Positions 2,295 to 8,406 of a DNA stretch of 50,257 nt are shown piece by piece; within the stretch, counting starts at the first letter, position 1; every line of letters starts with the position of its first letter. Source of the stretch: Bacteroidota bacterium. Lineage in GTDB: Bacteria; Bacteroidota; Bacteroidia; NS11-12g; UBA9320. Location of the stretch: contig CANIKO010000021.1 of NCBI GenBank assembly GCA_947468275.1, positions 1 to 50,257 on the forward strand. Reading direction: 5' to 3'. The position numbers and the translations under genes were made by a program. The notes under the pieces were generated by a model. It was not told where the DNA came from. It made no database searches and worked only from the letters and a program-made list of their open reading frames with translations.

Positions 2295-4127
2295 TTAATC
2301 ATGTACTATTTGCATTTTATAAGTGTTTATCACTTTATTTCCACTTACCAATTGGTAAGTATAAATACCCTGGGCCAAACCACCATTTTTTACAATTAAG
2401 CGGCCTTCTCCAAAGTTAGTGATATTAAATACCATCACTTTTTTTCCTGATTGGTCTAATATTTCAATTTTTGAAGTTTCCGAACCCATTGGGATATAGT
2501 AATCAATGTAGGTTTCATTGGTAAAAGGATTAGGTTTATTTTGGTCAAGCCTTGCCGAATTGTTAAGGATGATAGTGGAGATAACTTTATCATTCGCAGA
2601 TGTTTTACCTAACTTATTCATTTCACAGCAAGCATTAAGGTTGGTAATGTTTCTGTCCATTTCATTCAATTTATCTTCTAATAGTTTTGCACGTTCATAT
2701 AATTTGTTTTCTAAAGATATTAGTTTTTGATTTAAGTTGGCATTTTCAAGTTTACTTTGCTCTATTATGGCCTGTTGTTCCTGAATAGCTTTGGTAAGCA
2801 TGGGAATAACCCCAGTATAATTAACAGAATGAATTCCTTTCTCGCTTACCTTTACAAGATTTGGCATTACCGTTTTTAATTCCTGGGCAATAAAACCATA
2901 TTGTAATTCATCAGGAAAATTAAAAAAGGAATCGGGCTTAAAATAATAAGAAACGGGATTTAACTTATTTATAAAATCCAAACCGGTACTAATTGGTTTT
3001 ACATTTGTTTTAAATTTAGCATCAGATGTAGTCCAAGTTGGTGAGCTATTATAACAAGTACCATTGGTATATAAGACACCTCCTGGACCCCAACCACCTG
3101 TGTTTGTCATTCCAATACATACTGCCGTAGGAGCATTAATGTCCCCAATACTAATAACGTTATCTTCAGTAACCAATGCATTGTAACCAATAGCACCAGC
3201 ATTACTATAAGTTGTACCCGTTCCTGCATCTGCATTTGCACCGACAAGCACAAGGCCACCAGAAGATGCAGTAAAAGCATTATTCCCTGCATAAGATCCA
3301 AGAATCACATTGTTTTGTCCGGTTGTGACCCTATCACCTGCCTCAAAGCCCATAAATGTATTATAAGCACCGGTGGTATTAGCTGACCCCGACGAATTTC
3401 CAAGAAAAGTATTTCTACTTCCGGTCGTATTCGCAATTCCAGCATTTCGTCCAGAAAAGACATTTTCATTGCCAGTAGTATTTACATAGCCGCTAAAAGC
3501 CCCTATGAAACTATTATAATAGCCGGTTGTATTATCAATACCACTTGAATTACCAATAAATACATTATTATCGCCTGTGTTGACTTCTCCGGCATAGTAA
3601 CCCATAAATGTATTGTAATCTCCGGATGCCCCCCCCTGCCCGCTGAAGTAGCCATAAAATGAATTGTAGTTGCCTGTGTTGCTATTGCCGCTGTGAGCTC
3701 CGGAAAAAGTATTCTTATTTCCTGTTGCCCCCCCTCCTGAAAGATATCCGGAAAAAGTATTTTCATATCCAGTCGCATTGGTTACACCACTTTGATCGCC
3801 CAAAAAGGTATTTTTATAGCCTGTGGTATTAGCATACCCTGCTTGGCTACCAAGAAAAGAATTATCGTGACCGGTGGATGTTAACGATCCACATAATATA
3901 CCAATATACGTGTTATTGTAACCAGAACTATTAAATAAGCCGTCTGGAATGCCGGGATTGCCTCCGGCTGAAATTCCGAATAAGGCATTGCCTGATGCAG
4001 TGCTAGGAAAAGGAATCCCCACTGAGGTTTGGTCAATGGTATTTTGAGCATTCAATTTTCCAAAGGAAAACAGTAGTAAGAAGCTAATCGTTAAACTTCT
4101 TGCTAAATTTTTGTTGAGTGTTTTCAT
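2295..4127 (-). CDS. T9SS-exported NTFxG-repeat fibre protein with S74 chaperone domain
   Basis: The start is placed at the ATG at 4127 because it opens a clean signal peptide (MKTLNKNLARSL, hydrophobic core, LNAQ), although an in-frame ATG exists at 4199. The 610-residue product has about twelve repeats of roughly 20-22 residues with the pattern N-[TS]-F-x-G-xx-[SA]-G-xxx-NTTG, like collagen- or YadA-head-like fibres of Bacteroidota. A peptidase S74 (endosialidase-type intramolecular chaperone) domain follows, with TTSDAKFK holding the likely Ser-Asp autocleavage site, then a coiled coil and a T9SS type-A sorting domain (NPFTNETYIDYYIP to the end). It probably forms a trimeric surface or secreted fibre. 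Two copies of a palindrome found also before the signalling operon lie 71-134 bases upstream of the start, so the adjacent response regulator probably controls it. Confidence 0.85.
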   Translation of the reverse strand: MKTLNKNLARSLTISFLLLFSFGKLNAQNTIDQTSVGIPFPSTASGNALFGISAGGNPGIPDGLFNSSGYNNTYIGILCGSLTSTGHDNSFLGSQAGYANTTGYKNTFLGDQSGVTNATGYENTFSGYLSGGGATGNKNTFSGAHSGNSNTGNYNSFYGYFSGQGGASGDYNTFMGYYAGEVNTGDNNVFIGNSSGIDNTTGYYNSFIGAFSGYVNTTGNENVFSGRNAGIANTTGSRNTFLGNSSGSANTTGAYNTFMGFEAGDRVTTGQNNVILGSYAGNNAFTASSGGLVLVGANADAGTGTTYSNAGAIGYNALVTEDNVISIGDINAPTAVCIGMTNTGGWGPGGVLYTNGTCYNSSPTWTTSDAKFKTNVKPISTGLDFINKLNPVSYYFKPDSFFNFPDELQYGFIAQELKTVMPNLVKVSEKGIHSVNYTGVIPMLTKAIQEQQAIIEQSKLENANLNQKLISLENKLYERAKLLEDKLNEMDRNITNLNACCEMNKLGKTSANDKVISTIILNNSARLDQNKPNPFTNETYIDYYIPMGSETSKIEILDQSGKKVMVFNITNFGEGRLIVKNGGLAQGIYTYQLVSGNKVINTYKMQIVHD

Positions 4128-4147: not shown

Positions 4148-4155
4148 CAAACTTA
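4148..4155 (-). promoter_or_regulatory. Putative -7 element (TAAGTTTG) of the fibre gene
   Basis: The minus strand reads TAAGTTTG, a full TAnnTTTG match, with a TTG about 21 bases upstream as a possible -33 element. The inferred start near 4141 puts the centre of the nearer palindrome (4198-4209) at about -62, a usual position for a LuxR-type activator. Confidence 0.55.
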
Positions 4156-4188: not shown

Positions 4189-4211
4189 TGCAATTTCATA
4201 GTTTACTATTA
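4189..4211. promoter_or_regulatory. Palindromic operator candidate, site 1
   Basis: This 23-base sequence is repeated exactly at 4241-4263, 52 bases away. Its core, ATAGTTTACTAT (4198-4209), is ATAGT-TT-ACTAT, an inverted repeat with a two-base centre. It lies upstream of the fibre gene. The same half-sites occur at 6664-6675 and 6728-6739. Confidence 0.6.
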
Positions 4212-4240: not shown

Positions 4241-4263
4241 TGCAATTTCATAGTTTACTATTA
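4241..4263. promoter_or_regulatory. Palindromic operator candidate, site 2
   Basis: Exact second copy of the 23-base repeat at 4189-4211, with core ATAGTTTACTAT at 4250-4261. It overlaps the TAA stop codon (4261-4263) of the response-regulator gene, so the binding site begins where that gene ends. Confidence 0.6.
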
Positions 4264-4917
4264 GTTCTTTTTATGTAGGCCATTTTGGTTAACATAATTC
4301 ACTAATTCCACTACGTTTTTTACGCCCAGTTTTTTCATAATATTATGTCTATGTGTATTTATGGTGTATTCTGAAAGCGATACTTTTTCGGCTATTTTAG
4401 GGGCTGTGTATCCTTCACACAGAAGTTTTATTATTTCTATTTCCCTTAATCCAAGTTTTAGTTTCTTCTTATCTGGTGTTTCTACAGTTCGTTTCTTCTT
4501 ATATTCGTTCCATATTTCCAGTACCTCTTTGGTAAAATAGTTGCCATCCTTTACCAGCATTTTAAGGGCGTTTATTATCTCATTCTTATCCGCACTTTTT
4601 AGGATATAGCCTTCCACCCCCAGACTCATCAATTCTACAATTTGCCCAATTTCCTTATACGACGAACACATAATAATTTTGGTGTTTTGGTGGTCTTTTT
4701 TTATTAGGCGTGCTGTTTCCATGCCATCCATTCCCTCCATAGCTATATCCAATATTACTATGTCAAAATGTTGTTCGGTCAATTTTTTTAAAGCTACGGT
4801 TCCGTTTCGGGCTTCATCAAAAAATTTCACTTCTGATAGTGACGAAATAATTTTAATAATCCCTTCCCTTACTACAGAATGGTCGTCTACTATTAGTATG
4901 CTTATCATATTACCCAT
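4261..4917 (-). CDS. NarL/FixJ-family response regulator (REC + LuxR HTH)
   Basis: A 218-residue DNA-binding response regulator. The receiver domain (residues 5-125) has the acidic pair DD at 11-12, the phospho-acceptor Asp57 in VILDIAMEGMDG, Ser85/86 and Lys107. The LuxR-type helix-turn-helix covers about 155-212 (LGLREIEIIKLLCEGYTAPKIAEKV is the family's typical opening and turn; here it is described in parts: LGLREIEI then GYTAPKIAE). Translation can start at Met1 or Met4. It begins 6 bases after the restored stop of the kinase gene, the usual arrangement for a cognate pair. Palindromes upstream of the fibre gene and of its own operon are its likely targets (inference). Nothing in the sequence suggests it is defective. 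Confidence 0.92.
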   Translation of the reverse strand: MGNMISILIVDDHSVVREGIIKIISSLSEVKFFDEARNGTVALKKLTEQHFDIVILDIAMEGMDGMETARLIKKDHQNTKIIMCSSYKEIGQIVELMSLGVEGYILKSADKNEIINALKMLVKDGNYFTKEVLEIWNEYKKKRTVETPDKKKLKLGLREIEIIKLLCEGYTAPKIAEKVSLSEYTINTHRHNIMKKLGVKNVVELVNYVNQNGLHKKN

Positions 4918-4923
4918 ATTATT

Positions 4924-5662
4924 TTATAGTTTTATAGCCATCGTTAATGTAAATCCATTTTGAGTTTCTATCGTTAATTTGCCTTTAATCAATTCAGCTC
5001 TCGTCCTTATGTTTTTTTAATCCTATTCCCTCAATTTTTTTATAGGGTTCAAAACCCTTTCCATTGTCAAAATAAGTAAGGGAAAGTTCTTTCCCCTGAT
5101 GCTCATATATTATATCCAAATTTATTTCATTGGCATGGCTGTGTTTTAGGGTATTGTTATATAATTCTAAAATAATATAATACAGGTGTATTTCTATATT
5201 TTGATGGAATCGTGTTGAGTAGGTATCATCAAAAAAATTTACGGTAAATCCTTCCGGGGCATTAGCAAATAATTTTTTTATTGTATATATCAATCCATGT
5301 TCTTTAATGGTTTTGGGCATTAAATTATGAGCTATTTGCCGCATTGTTTCCATCGCATTTGTTACTTTAAGTTTGGCATCTTCCTTGGTTTGCGTGGCTT
5401 TTAACTCATTGTTTAATTCAATTTCATCAATGGTTTGTATAATATCAAAAAGTGCTGCCCCCATGCTATCGTGTAAATCCATAGCTATCCGTCCCCGCTC
5501 ATTATCCTGCCCCAAAAAAATAGTATTAATAATTTCTATCCGCTGCCTCTTTAGTTTTTTATTAAATGCCAAAAACATTATCAATACCGATAACCCCACT
5601 ACAGCAAGGGTAATAGAAAAAATAAAAACTAAGTTAATTCCTAAACCTGAACCCTCTTGCAT
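4924..5662 (-). CDS. LytS/NarX-type sensor histidine kinase, frame broken in a 7-A run
   Basis: The uninterrupted frame ends at 4994 after GIGLKKHKDES, inside the ATPase domain. Skipping one base in the A run (plus-strand T run 5012-5018) restores GLKNIRTRAELIKGKLTIE and a tail ending MAIKL, with a TAA at 4924-4926, 6 bases before the regulator ATG. The restored protein is about 246 residues: one membrane helix (about 10-32), a HisKA_3 region with the likely phospho-acceptor in MDLHDSMGAALF, the N box (ELYNNTLKHSHA) and the G1 box (DNGKGF). The periplasmic part is only a few residues, so it has no sensor domain of its own. Its ATG overlaps the end of the seven-helix membrane protein gene by 22 bases. 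The shift may be a sequencing error, a real mutation, or slippage. Confidence 0.85.
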
Positions 5663-6264
5663 AAAAAACTTATTCCAAACATACTATTACATAAAACATT
5701 GGCTACTCCATTAATTATGGCAAAAGCCTCCCCAAAAAGATTGTTGTTGAAATTAAAAAATGAAATACTTGAATAAGCATAGATAACAATCACAAACAAA
5801 TAATAAATTAATCGGGCTGATGCTATCCATAAAATAGGATTTTGGACAGGAGCCCAATCGTCTAATGAACCAATAATAACATAAAAACTAAGGATTATAA
5901 AATACAAGAATAATACTATAAAATATATGCTGGGTGAATAGAAAGAAGTATGCCAAAACCACGAATCCAAACAATCAAATAATATTAGCCCAAAATAAAT
6001 AAAGGTAAGAGTTTTCAGCCAATTTGGAAAAGAACGGAATTTATTAAAAAACCACGTAAAAAATAAGAAATCACAAATAAAAAACGGCTTAAACATCCAA
6101 TGGTTATTGAATTCGTTCAAAGCCAAAATTGTAGAAACAATTTCAAATGTAAAAGAGAAAATAATGTACCAAAGAAAATACGTTTGGAGTTTCCCATTTC
6201 TGCGATAGAAAAATAGTCCGGCTATTAAGGGAAATAGAATGGATAAACTACTAACTAAATCCAA
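5641..6264 (-). CDS. Seven-helix membrane protein, likely sensor partner of the kinase
   Basis: A 207-residue, strongly hydrophobic protein with about seven predicted membrane helices and many aromatic residues. I do not recognise a named family. The start must be the TTG at 6264, because the preceding gene's TAG (6271-6273) is in the same frame and the next Met is near residue 56, beyond the first helix. It starts 6 bases after the small gene upstream and overlaps the histidine kinase gene by 22 bases, so translation is probably coupled. As the kinase lacks a sensor domain, this protein is a reasonable candidate to detect the signal in the membrane; that role is inferred from position alone. 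Confidence 0.8.
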   Translation of the reverse strand: MDLVSSLSILFPLIAGLFFYRRNGKLQTYFLWYIIFSFTFEIVSTILALNEFNNHWMFKPFFICDFLFFTWFFNKFRSFPNWLKTLTFIYFGLILFDCLDSWFWHTSFYSPSIYFIVLFLYFIILSFYVIIGSLDDWAPVQNPILWIASARLIYYLFVIVIYAYSSISFFNFNNNLFGEAFAIINGVANVLCNSMFGISFLCKRVQV

Positions 6265-6270
6265 GTTGGT

Positions 6271-6582
6271 CTAAGAATTTAAAGCATTTGCTGAGCCACA
6301 TCGTGTAGGACATGGCATTCCTAACTCGGCTAATACACCATCATCGATATCATCTTCATTGGCCAATACGCCGCATATTACCAATTGTGGGTTGCCCAAA
6401 GAATCTTCACCAAAATAGATACGGATACCTACGCAATCACCCTGCTCAAGAATATCTGAAATAGCTGTTTTTCCGTAAAAGAATCCTTTGACTGCCGTTG
6501 GGTGACTAGTTCTGTAATTGGCTGTTAAATCACCTGCATCCAGCAGACTAATAGTGTGGTTTTCGTTTCCTGTAAATGACAT
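6271..6582 (-). CDS. Small cytoplasmic protein with Cys-containing tail, first gene of signalling operon
   Basis: A 103-residue protein without signal peptide or membrane helix. It opens MSFTGNENHTISL, has a central QGDCVGIRIYFGED block followed by LVICGV, and ends MPCPTRCGSANALNS. Cysteines are at 50, 70, 91 and 95. It resembles, from memory, a family of uncharacterised Bacteroidota proteins with a conserved GIRxYxG core and CPxxC tail; no function is known to me. It is the first gene of a leftward operon with the membrane protein, kinase and regulator, and two palindromes lie 82-157 bases upstream of its ATG. It might be a ligand, a metal- or redox-responsive partner, or a target of the system; the sequence does not decide. 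Confidence 0.75.
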   Translation of the reverse strand: MSFTGNENHTISLLDAGDLTANYRTSHPTAVKGFFYGKTAISDILEQGDCVGIRIYFGEDSLGNPQLVICGVLANEDDIDDGVLAELGMPCPTRCGSANALNS

Positions 6583-6660
6583 AATTTTTCTGTTTATATT
6601 TTCTACAAGTATAATTTATTTTGATACCGTGTATTTTTTTAAAAGTAAATTTTAAGAAAT

Positions 6661-6678
6661 TTCATAGTAAACTATTAG
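6661..6678. promoter_or_regulatory. Palindromic operator candidate, site 3
   Basis: Core ATAGTAAACTAT at 6664-6675, with the same TTC flank on the left and TAG on the right as sites 1 and 2. It lies 82-93 bases before the ATG of the 103-residue protein. Confidence 0.6.
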
Positions 6679-6724: not shown

Positions 6725-6742
6725 CTAATAGTAAACTATTAG
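6725..6742. promoter_or_regulatory. Palindromic operator candidate, site 4 (longest match)
   Basis: CTAATAGTAAACTATTAG is a perfect 8-bp inverted repeat around a two-base centre. It lies 64 bases from site 3, matching the paired layout at 4189-4263. Confidence 0.6.
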
Positions 6743-7047
6743 GGTTTTATTTTCATTTTTTCAAAAATTATAAATATAGGAAAAGTTAAAACTATAACAA
6801 GAAATGATAACTTTTTAAAAGTTGTCTGCTCCATATAAAAAAATCATTTTATAACTGCGGTCATAAAAAACCGGAATAGGAATTTCTTTTCCTTTACCGG
6901 AGGGGTGTCTTATAAACTTAAAAATCTAAAGGAAATTTTAACACCTAAATACCACAACAAAAAATATGGCTATTAATTAAAAAACTAAAGAATAAAACTC
7001 CATGATTTTCTCAAAATCCTTTGCAATAGAGTATTTTATTCTTCCAA

Positions 7048-7086: not shown

Positions 7087-8406
7087 TCATTTCAATGTGT
7101 AAAATGCTCCTGCGCCCTTTTGTCCGCTTGGTTTTAGTAAGTGTTTTACTACCATCTCTGTCAAGTCGTTACTTGCAGTATTTCGTGAACAGTCGTTTAA
7201 TTTTTGATATTCACTATTTGTAATTTTCCCCTTGTCTTTTGCGAACATCAAAGCTTTTACTTGTCTGCCGTTTAGGTTAAGTGATTGCAAATATTTTTCA
7301 TTGTAAATATCCTTTCTAAACTCTACAGAAATATCGCTTGAATCATATCGAAAAACAGGGTCGGGGATTCCCGCTTGTTTACATTCTCTAACTATTTTTA
7401 TCGTTCCCCGTCCCCAGGATTCAATGTAACCACTGCGGAACAAAGCATTAGCAATGTCAGGGTTGTATGGTCTTGAAGCGTGTTTTTCCAATAAGTTTTT
7501 AACCGTCCAGTTTTCGGGCAATTGACCTTCGTTCCAAAAAATAATTTTGTCGTTGTAAACGCTTATTTGAATTGGGACACCACCCGAATAATCTTTATGA
7601 GCAATGGCATTCAGCAGGGCTTCACGAACTGCATCTTTTGGATATTCATACGTTTCTATTCTGTTAATGCCTTCGTAACTAATTGCAGCTTTAATATATT
7701 TAGTAAAAAGCAAATCCATTGTTTTCTCTATTTGCTCAAACAAGTTGCCATGTATTTCATCTTGAAATTTTAAATCATCATCGGTTTCAAAATACCCGAT
7801 TTTGATATAAGCACCTGTTACAAAATTTTCGGGGTTGGTGTAAAATAATAGAATGGCGGCACGTTTTAAAAAATCATTCTCTTTTAATTGCAGATTTTCA
7901 AGTAGGTTTTCGTTGCTATCGGTTAAAATATCTTCTTCTATTCGTTGGCTTTTAAATGCACGTTTACGGAAAAAATCAAATGTTTCTTGCTTTAAATCTT
8001 TTGCCGAAACCTTTGGAACCGGCACACCATCCCAGCGTTTCCCTTTTTTCTGTAAAAGAAATTTATCTAAAGCTGCCCCCTTTAATTCTTGCTTGGTGCT
8101 ACCACTTCTATAATGGTATTGCCCTTTGTAATTAACAGGGTAGGGATAACCTTCAACTATTATTTCAATAAAATCGCCTTGGGTTGTAGTGTGTAAATTT
8201 ACATCTGCCAAGATTCCTAAAACATCTCTCACCTTATTGGGTATTTCTTCCAATAATTTTTTTACATCTGTTATACCAACAACATTTCCGTTATCGTCTT
8301 TGCCTATAAAAATGCTCCCATCATTGGCATTAGCAAAACCGCATATCCATTTCAGATACTCATCTCGCCAACTTTGTTTGTATTCTATGTTTTGGGATTC
8401 TGACAT
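7087..8406 (-). CDS. AlbA_2/Schlafen-type ATP-binding regulator (RecG-like C-terminus)
   Basis: A 439-residue protein of the family often named putative DNA-binding or transcriptional regulator. The N-terminal AlbA_2 domain covers about 1-115: SQNIEYKQSW, then CGFANANDGSIFIGKDDNG, then the HYRSGSTKQEL block. A GHKL-like ATP-binding domain (HATPase_c_4) occupies about 235-345, with REALLNAIAHKDYS and ESWGRGTIKI. A winged-helix region closes the protein (ALMFAKDKGKITNSEYQKL). Family members are scattered among genomes and often sit near mobile or defence genes. Here it stands alone between two gene-poor stretches of about 500 bases, which fits an accessory gene. Its target is unknown. Confidence 0.88.
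   Translation of the reverse strand: MSESQNIEYKQSWRDEYLKWICGFANANDGSIFIGKDDNGNVVGITDVKKLLEEIPNKVRDVLGILADVNLHTTTQGDFIEIIVEGYPYPVNYKGQYHYRSGSTKQELKGAALDKFLLQKKGKRWDGVPVPKVSAKDLKQETFDFFRKRAFKSQRIEEDILTDSNENLLENLQLKENDFLKRAAILLFYTNPENFVTGAYIKIGYFETDDDLKFQDEIHGNLFEQIEKTMDLLFTKYIKAAISYEGINRIETYEYPKDAVREALLNAIAHKDYSGGVPIQISVYNDKIIFWNEGQLPENWTVKNLLEKHASRPYNPDIANALFRSGYIESWGRGTIKIVRECKQAGIPDPVFRYDSSDISVEFRKDIYNEKYLQSLNLNGRQVKALMFAKDKGKITNSEYQKLNDCSRNTASNDLTEMVVKHLLKPSGQKGAGAFYTLK

Follow-up and report, generated by a model that had tools for sequence, protein, structure and literature searches.

A probable four-component signalling module of Bacteroidota comprising a small protein, a seven-helix membrane protein, a HisKA_3 kinase and a LuxR-type regulator

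The window analysed here is a 50,257-nt stretch of contig CANIKO010000021.1 (assembly GCA_947468275.1) from a Bacteroidota bacterium. On its minus strand it carries four genes head to tail, encoding a 103-amino-acid small partner protein (6271..6582), a 207-amino-acid seven-helix membrane protein with a TTG start, the presumed receptor (5641..6264, its helices predicted by AlphaFold2), a HisKA_3 histidine kinase with a single helix near its N-terminus (4924..5662 when frame-corrected, 4994..5662 as sequenced) and a LuxR/NarL-type response regulator (4261..4917), the last two assigned with Pfam. The spacing of the genes is 6, −22 and 6 bases, so that the seven-helix gene overlaps the kinase gene by 22 bases; the last figure applies after correction of the kinase frame, the stop of which then lies at 4924-4926, 6 bases ahead of the regulator ATG. 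An earlier sequence-only reading had proposed this arrangement as a sensory module, and the layout was recovered as described. The small protein consists of an alpha/beta core and a C-terminal tail and has no leader; the four Cys residues and CPxxC tail attributed to it were found at Cys 50, 70, 91 and 95 and as CPTRC.

The kinase had been labelled LytS-type, a label replaced here by HisKA_3 according to Pfam (PF07730, E 1.8e-6, above cut-off). As had been claimed, few of its residues lie outside the membrane: about ten precede the sole hydrophobic stretch, and the protein has no sensor of its own. The regulator contains Response_reg (E 4.7e-27) and GerE (E 4e-15) domains, and kinase and regulator together have the domain composition of a two-component system. 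The model of UhpB gave the window kinase 53 bits, far below its cut-off of 408. LiaS equivalence was rejected, since the truncated kinase reached only 54 bits with the LiaS model, the cut-off of which is 450; its score with the MctS model was higher (68 bits).

HATPase_c was matched at E 5.6e-5 with 24 bits, short of the cut-off of 26.4, and the break in the kinase frame is the probable reason. The break lies at an A7 run (5012-5018), and the kinase as sequenced ends at 4994, just past GIGL, with loss of the end of the ATPase domain; a frame that continues the reading of the paralogues needs one A fewer. The window kinase may thus be broken or mis-sequenced. Decay of this copy, by which the local system would be off while its relatives work, is a possible but not favoured explanation. 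The extra A does truncate the kinase, and the three paralogous kinases of the same genome are full length (246-257 amino acids); however, neither the remaining three window genes nor the sites are damaged, and assemblies commonly contain single-base errors within A runs.

Neither Pfam nor NCBIfam matched the window small protein or its 45-row alignment. A sequence search of solved structures (E≤1) gave a single match at E 0.6, and comparison with solved folds yielded no convincing match (Foldseek E 0.36 and Z 3.4 at best). In many relatives the core reads CVGIRIYYG, and the tail is kept behind a linker of variable length. CPxxC or PP occurs within the last 45 residues of 128/135 small-family ORFs; PP by itself occurs there in 92, against a mean of 14.7 after shuffling. 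The Cys residues were dropped as the key feature of the protein and are not constant in the family, because many distant relatives lack the Cys pair and retain the PP or CP of the tail. By rough rules, the N-terminus is a predicted lipoprotein signal or otherwise hydrophobic in 31 of the 135 ORFs, and no leader is recognised in the other 104. Since most members lack a recognised leader, the small protein may be cytoplasmic, with the lipoprotein relatives facing the periplasm; such N-termini in part of the family would suit a co-receptor no less than a diffusible signal.

Quorum or peptide signalling through the module is possible. It is unlikely, though, that the small protein gives rise to a secreted peptide signal of the agr or ComX kind, with the seven-helix protein as its processor, exporter or receptor in quorum sensing via the kinase. 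Gene content and probable self-control do resemble such systems, and a tail kept after a variable linker would suit a precursor. Peptide signals are typically fast-changing, whereas none of the four proteins is better conserved than the small one, which has a mean identity of 0.44 across 24 modules compared with 0.21 for the seven-helix protein; the lipoprotein-like N-termini also speak against a precursor. No processing enzyme or exporter, and no ComQ- or AgrB-like gene, was recognised by Pfam among the four genes and the two flanking genes. ComP and AgrC bear sensor helices of their own and AgrA is of the LytTR type, whereas the kinase here has one helix and the regulator is of the LuxR/NarL type; membership of agr was rejected on this GerE/LuxR-type regulator. 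In the parts of the published accounts consulted, ComQXPA and agr loci are made up of four adjacent genes that include a kinase and a regulator (PMC8895600, PMC4008528).

Seven helical spans were predicted in the 207-amino-acid protein by AlphaFold2 (pLDDT 91.6, pTM 0.88). The arrangement may be rhodopsin/GPCR-like, with a best Z of 11.2 (1mgy; rmsd 4.4 over 193 residues), although Z below about 13 in helical bundles may mean a common arrangement only. Foldseek returned nothing at E≤0.001, and a sequence search of solved structures (E≤1) returned no match. The weak fold matches of the small and seven-helix proteins do not show that the folds are new. Membership of a known, unrelated transporter family had been named in the sequence-only reading as evidence against the module; the window protein had no match in Pfam at E≤10 or in NCBIfam. 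Conservation is strongest in columns that mostly hold hydrophobic or small residues, in N54, which lies in a loop, and in F/W/G where helix 6 begins. A mainly enzymatic or transport function, in which the small protein would serve as substrate or helper and the kinase would read the activity of the seven-helix protein as UhpB reads UhpC, is unlikely: kinases do read transport proteins in some bacteria, and weak single Pfam matches occurred in 2/45 relatives (HlyIII, E 6.8e-4; DUF3981, E 0.0016) and in L109, one of three further distant relatives (MnhB, E 8e-4, below the MnhB cut-off), but none of the 45 relatives matched NCBIfam, no Pfam or NCBIfam family common to the group was found, and the conserved columns hold no obvious catalytic set.

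Two known types of membrane sensor were compared with this protein. 7TMR-DISM (PF07695) is a seven-helix receptor unit that feeds signalling domains, with sensor, helices and output in one chain, whereas here these parts are encoded by separate genes. Kinship was not supported: PF07695 matched neither the window protein nor its 45 relatives, and hhalign of the family against the one PF07695 protein encoded in the source genome (a single sequence) gave a probability of 1.4, that is, no relation. In UhpABC, a separate membrane protein, UhpC, is the sensor for the kinase UhpB and a LuxR-type regulator, which is also the plan proposed here. UhpC, however, is related to transporters and has 12 helices, UhpB carries a multi-helix domain of its own and the system lacks a small partner, in contrast to the seven helices, one-helix kinase and small partner of the present module.

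The module is real and widespread, beyond chance: it is present four times in the source genome and recurs across Bacteroidota. The small protein was found in 34/296 and the seven-helix protein in 60/296 sampled Bacteroidota genomes, both lower bounds, as only the best candidates per genome were scored. Relatives also occur in genomes labelled Neomarinimicrobiota and Zixiibacteriota. Separation of the genes in other genomes had been named beforehand as evidence against a module; in the 296 genomes, 48 of 49 small-protein matches had a seven-helix match on the same strand no more than 530 bases away, and the 49th lay at a contig end. Among named genome records, a HisKA_3-type kinase came next in 31/36 loci that had a small ORF and enough DNA. 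The co-occurrence of the genes and a kinase that has no sensor of its own both bear out the appearance of a sensory module.

In other genomes, 128 seven-helix ORFs were followed by a HisKA_3-type kinase in 111 cases, with the kinase ORF overlapping in 75 of these, had a regulator in reach in 96, and were preceded by a small-family ORF in 81. A single helix was predicted in 95/105 distinct kinases, at a median of 5 residues from the start. No small homologue was detected beside 47 of the 128, 37 of which have the kinase, nor beside a seven-helix gene on contig C2 of the source genome. The kinase was absent by the adjacency rule in 17/128, in part as an artefact of the rule, because the kinase ORF at L157 (= L107) overlaps beyond the allowed limit. 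Small and seven-helix genes stand without an adjoining kinase at three Fibrella loci and at L032, and six loci of Larkinella and Hymenobacter have two small/seven-helix pairs ahead of one kinase. Elsewhere the place of the kinase is taken by PAS-type kinases (L158, L217) or by a one-helix membrane PAS-LuxR protein (L034). As the outputs vary, the small and seven-helix proteins look like the input pair. Alignment A3 leaves out the three paralogues of the source genome, L035 (no small ORF called) and L041 (cut off); alignment A4 leaves out the paralogues of the source genome, L013, L018 (a fragment) and L044 (runs of N).

Divergence was compared across 24 modules in which each gene is present once; loci were excluded if they had two pairs, lacked a gene, ran into a contig end or contained N runs, and the set includes the L015 regulator ORF of only 159 amino acids and the truncated window kinase. 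Rank partial correlations were 0.43 for the small and seven-helix proteins, 0.21 for the seven-helix protein and kinase, 0.31 for the seven-helix protein and regulator and 0.29 for kinase and regulator, against −0.09 and 0.04 for the small protein with kinase and regulator, respectively. The comparison was also run with bootstrap and on a 19-module subset. Judged from these sequence divergences, the proteins appear to co-diverge as a chain: small protein, seven-helix protein, kinase, regulator.

Upstream of the small gene, the site search found operator-like near-palindromes at 6662..6677 and 6726..6741. A 23-base repeat with an operator-like near-palindrome (4241..4263) overlaps the regulator stop codon and lies ahead of the downstream gene; its second copy, also with an operator-like site, is at 4189..4211. 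The downstream gene, the presumed target (2295..4127, minus strand), encodes a predicted secreted repeat protein with a Peptidase_S74 domain and a T9SS sorting tail below cut-off. Its ORF opens at 4199 and the likelier start is the ATG at 4127. The leader was missed by the leader pattern search and resembles, by alignment, the leaders of the targets in modules C8 and C17. The Bacteroidota −7 box has the consensus TAnnTTTG, and TAAGTTTG ahead of the target gene (4148..4155, minus strand) fits it; TAAGTTTG or TAGGTTTG also occurs ahead of the C17 and C8 targets. A possible −7 box ahead of the small gene, TATACTTG (6606..6613, minus strand), is also present in C8 and C9, with TATAATTG in C17.

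Module-specific repeats were found both upstream of the small gene and downstream of the regulator gene in five modules (window, C9, C17, C8 and L015), the site patterns being derived from the very sequences used for counting them. Within the 12 to 50 kb searched, with stated mismatches, the repeats of each module are confined to those two spots, and their presence at both in five modules suggests self-control and control of the neighbour. Palindromes alone were rejected as site evidence, since they are not unusual in these AT-rich stretches. In a general upstream/downstream site test of 29 modules with 60 shuffles each, C9 alone exceeded every shuffle; the shuffles that equalled the module numbered 2 for L044, 2 for L024, 3 for L015, 4 for the window, 8 for L043, 9 for L014, 14 for C8 and 58 for C17, and most other modules were negative. 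The blind test therefore clearly backs self- and neighbour-control sites for one module only, C9, and the sites are argued module by module, after the fact. A loose form of the window motif had four further single matches in the window against a chance mean of 3.3. A relaxed form had 24 matches elsewhere in the genome against 42 for the reversed control, so that no genome-wide regulon can be read from the motif.

The neighbour is a predicted secreted protein in three of the four modules of this genome. Control of surface genes is not general, because the C9 neighbour (662 amino acids) has no visible leader and no Pfam family and a 2-oxoglutarate dehydrogenase adjoins one Larkinella module. Pfam scans of the large neighbours of other modules showed no target family common to the modules.

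With a probability of roughly 0.7, we read the four genes as a four-component signalling system of small protein and seven-helix receptor, kinase and regulator that controls itself and its neighbour. The computational evidence comprises the order and conservation of the genes, the domain types, the predicted seven-helix topology, outputs that can replace one another and the repeats at both spots in five modules. The small alpha/beta protein and the seven-helix protein would be in contact and jointly form the receptor. This receptor would control the HisKA_3 kinase, which has no more than a membrane helix of its own, and the kinase would in turn phosphorylate the LuxR/NarL-type regulator. By binding the module-specific repeats before the small gene, the regulator would control its own module, and by binding those before the next gene it would presumably activate, rather than repress, that gene as well.

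According to the excerpts consulted of one report, the LiaX-LiaF-LiaS-LiaR system of Enterococcus consists of a surface protein, a membrane accessory protein, a kinase and a response regulator, controls its own locus and envelope genes, and has PF09922 in LiaF and PF13349 in LiaX (PMC10269926). As far as those excerpts describe it, it shares with the present module the four parts (partner, membrane protein, kinase and regulator) and the proposed control of its own locus. It differs in that the present module has a seven-helix accessory protein and, as partner, a conserved domain of 103 amino acids, LiaF and LiaX being of other families. The LiaF domain was absent from the window protein (Pfam E≤10) and from the 45 aligned members (E≤0.01). 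By title and abstract start, no description of such a module was seen among the open-access papers listed by a phrase search. By analogy, the module is best read as an undescribed four-component family that would work like the Lia system with other proteins. More speculatively, and with considerable doubt, it might be a split seven-helix receptor in which the conserved C-terminal CP/PP tail of the small protein is a built-in agonist, tethered or diffusible, and inserts into the seven-helix protein, somewhat as in peptide-activated GPCRs, with paralogues in one cell as insulated channels that each have their own receptor pair, operator and target.

The four-component reading joins two families that have no Pfam or NCBIfam match in one probable signalling system. 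If it is right, many sensor-less HisKA_3 kinases of Bacteroidota would gain a defined receptor. Four paralogues with differing operator-like sites in one genome would form a natural test bed for channel separation and, given the secreted-protein neighbours of three of them, the system may shape the cell surface.

The four genes proposed in the sequence-only reading are present on the minus strand where it placed them. They encode a small protein of 103 aa (6271-6582), a seven-helix membrane protein of 207 aa (5641-6264), a kinase that spans 4994-5662 as sequenced, and a regulator with receiver and GerE domains (4261-4917). The reported spacing (gap of 6, overlap of 22 and gap of 6 bases) is correct when the kinase is continued in the other frame past the A7 run at 5012-5018, where its frame is broken. 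Sequencing error, decay and slippage are possible causes of this break; because the kinases of the other three modules of the genome are full length, it is taken as local or as a sequencing error. The kinase is of the HisKA_3 type and had been wrongly labelled "LytS-type". AlphaFold2 models showed a compact alpha/beta domain for the small protein (pLDDT 89, pTM 0.73) and seven helical spans for the 207-aa protein (pLDDT 91.6, pTM 0.88). The arrangement of the latter model is like that of rhodopsins and GPCRs (Z 11.2, rmsd 4.4, 193 residues), a likeness that may reflect no more than a shared layout of helices. Upstream of the module, a gene at 7087-8406 encodes Schlafen AlbA_2 and RecG-like C-terminal domains.

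The source genome spans 3.31 Mb in 32 contigs and contains four small-protein genes and five seven-helix genes. The complete order of small, seven-helix, kinase and regulator genes was found at four loci, in the window and on contigs C8, C9 and C17. At the fifth seven-helix locus, on contig C2, a different regulator is followed by a seven-helix gene and a kinase, without a small gene. Among the four paralogues, the small proteins are 65-78% identical to one another, the seven-helix proteins 36-55%, the kinases 37-46% and the regulators 40-52%. Similar long non-coding stretches were seen by eye upstream of two of them (window ~6850-7035; C17 locus L005 ~5770-5955) and are possibly a terminator, an RNA or a remnant.

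When 84,980 species genomes were searched with an alignment of the small protein, 56 stretches matched, and 40 of them encode a relative. Their taxon labels are mainly Bacteroidota or its groups, with three Neomarinimicrobiota and one Zixiibacteriota (a chromosome record). A small ORF was called at 39 of these 40 loci, giving 45 small ORFs in total. A seven-helix ORF follows 44 of them (at L018 a fragment only), and the 45th (L041) is truncated by the contig end. A HisKA_3-type kinase comes next at 31 of the 36 loci having sufficient DNA beyond, the five others being L032, L034 and three Fibrella loci. As a separate sample, 296 Bacteroidota genomes including the source genome were searched with profiles widened on the scan ORFs from sequence only, gene adjacency playing no part, and scoring was limited to the best 10 to 15 candidates of each genome. 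The small profile matched at least 49 places in at least 34 genomes, and the seven-helix profile at least 133 places in at least 60. Within 530 bases downstream of 48 of the 49 small-profile matches lies a seven-helix match; the remaining one is at a contig end. With the profiles before their second widening, a small match was found upstream of 47 of the 133 seven-helix matches.

The surroundings of the seven-helix matches from the other genomes were collected and the profiles widened again. A HisKA_3-type kinase lies downstream of at least 111 of 128 seven-helix ORFs, a lower bound since the L157 kinase was missed through the overlap limit applied. A regulator is within reach of 96 and a small-family ORF is upstream of 81. 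A kinase is present with 37 of the 47 seven-helix ORFs that have no upstream small match. Most of these 47 are preceded by another ORF (none is listed for 5), and at L146, L189, L220 and L234, at least, that ORF ends in a CP.PP(G)C tail. The kinases are minimal, with a single predicted helix in 95/105 (median distance from the start, 5 residues), and in 75/111 the kinase ORF overlaps the seven-helix ORF. If the small and seven-helix proteins form a receptor pair, swapped outputs and paired genes before one kinase would be expected. PAS kinases are the output at L158 and L217. At L034:9236-10108, the protein encoded directly behind the small and seven-helix genes has one helix, a PAS domain and a LuxR DNA-binding domain, and is possibly a membrane-bound regulator in the kinase's place. 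Two small/seven-helix pairs precede one kinase at six loci (Larkinella, Hymenobacter). Small and seven-helix genes without an adjoining kinase were observed at L050, L051 and L052 (Fibrella) and at L032.

Rank partial correlations of pairwise divergence among 24 modules were 0.43 for small-7TM (seven-helix), 0.21 for 7TM-kinase, 0.31 for 7TM-regulator, 0.29 for kinase-regulator, -0.09 for small-kinase and 0.04 for small-regulator. The bootstrap 5-95% range for small-7TM was 0.16 to 0.60; ranges for 7TM-kinase, 7TM-regulator and kinase-regulator were above zero, and those for small-kinase and small-regulator included zero. On a 19-module subset the small-7TM value was 0.34. Co-divergence is support rather than proof, because module pairs are non-independent and some distances are near saturation.

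No leader is present in the window-type small protein. When the 135 ORFs of the widened family were sorted by approximate rules, 10 came out as lipoproteins, 21 with some other hydrophobic N-terminus and 104 without either. The result hints that the small domain can function outside the cytoplasm. Besides the core, the tail is conserved family-wide. Within the last 45 residues, CPxxC occurs in 85/135, PP in 92/135 (mean 14.7 in shuffled proteins) and either in 128/135. The domain is duplicated within one ORF at L137:2160-2909 and L170:3659-4591, and within one frame in the L174 region (G097). That the module works through a peptide signal seems unlikely to us.

Operator-like repeats were found before the small gene and after the regulator gene. 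In the 50-kb window the ATAGTWWACTATKA motif occurs at only four places, one pair before the small gene and another between the regulator and the next gene, and the sites include an exact 23-base repeat. The C9 motif differs from that of the window, with an identical perfect 18-base palindrome at both spots. C17 and C8 have their own distinct motifs, one site per spot, and in the related module L015 the site is present five times (three before the small gene, two before the next gene). The C17-type site recurs in L014, a relative of C17, but the DNA around it is conserved as well, so L014 gives no clean footprint. Shuffle counts for the site patterns describe the patterns and not a blind search, because the patterns were derived from these same sequences. 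The blind test was clear only for C9 (0/60 shuffles as good), weak for the window (4/60) and L015 (3/60), and failed for C8 (14/60) and C17 (58/60). The claim of significant sites in every module is weakened. The telling point is that every site set occupies the same two spots yet differs from module to module.

The presumed target in the window, 2295-4127 on the minus strand, is a predicted secreted repeat protein that has a Peptidase_S74 domain as well as a T9SS sorting signal scoring below the cut-off. The C17 target is likewise an S74-domain repeat protein; a counterpart of the window target lies behind the C17 module at L005:8679-10607. With up to one mismatch allowed, a promoter leader occurs five times in the genome: at the C8 target, at the C17 target, at a second C17 gene set whose site is of the C17 type, and at gene sets on C23 (L251, C23:30352) and C28 (L252, C28:4938) bearing the L015-type site. 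The genome itself yielded no L015-type module, although the C23 and C28 sets carry its site; the C23 set lies within ~400 bases of the contig end. The leader of the window target is similar by alignment, yet outside the reach of the five-place pattern, and the promoter leader is absent before the C9 target. Four of the five places, and likewise the targets of L014 and L015, are followed by a protein of 149-167 aa for which a leader is predicted. For the C9 neighbour neither a leader nor a family is visible. The view of the targets as surface proteins is weakened. The odds of the receptor reading are unchanged, because it is independent of the surface-target and site-significance claims.

That the seven-helix protein is primarily an enzyme or a transporter is improbable. 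LiaX-LiaF-LiaS-LiaR is most similar in its way of working, but the module's accessory parts belong to other families; "four-component" is also proposed by the authors for that system, in an excerpt of PMC10269926. No description of a system like the module was found in the open-access literature among the matches listed, and its absence from print is unproven. Gene order, swapped outputs and co-divergence suggest that the small and seven-helix proteins act jointly as a receptor; the steps after the kinase draw on established two-component chemistry. The best reading, at a probability of about 0.7, is a whole pathway in which some input signal would be received by this pair, which would pass it to the one-helix kinase and on to the regulator, and the regulator would control its own module and, where sites suggest, the neighbouring gene.
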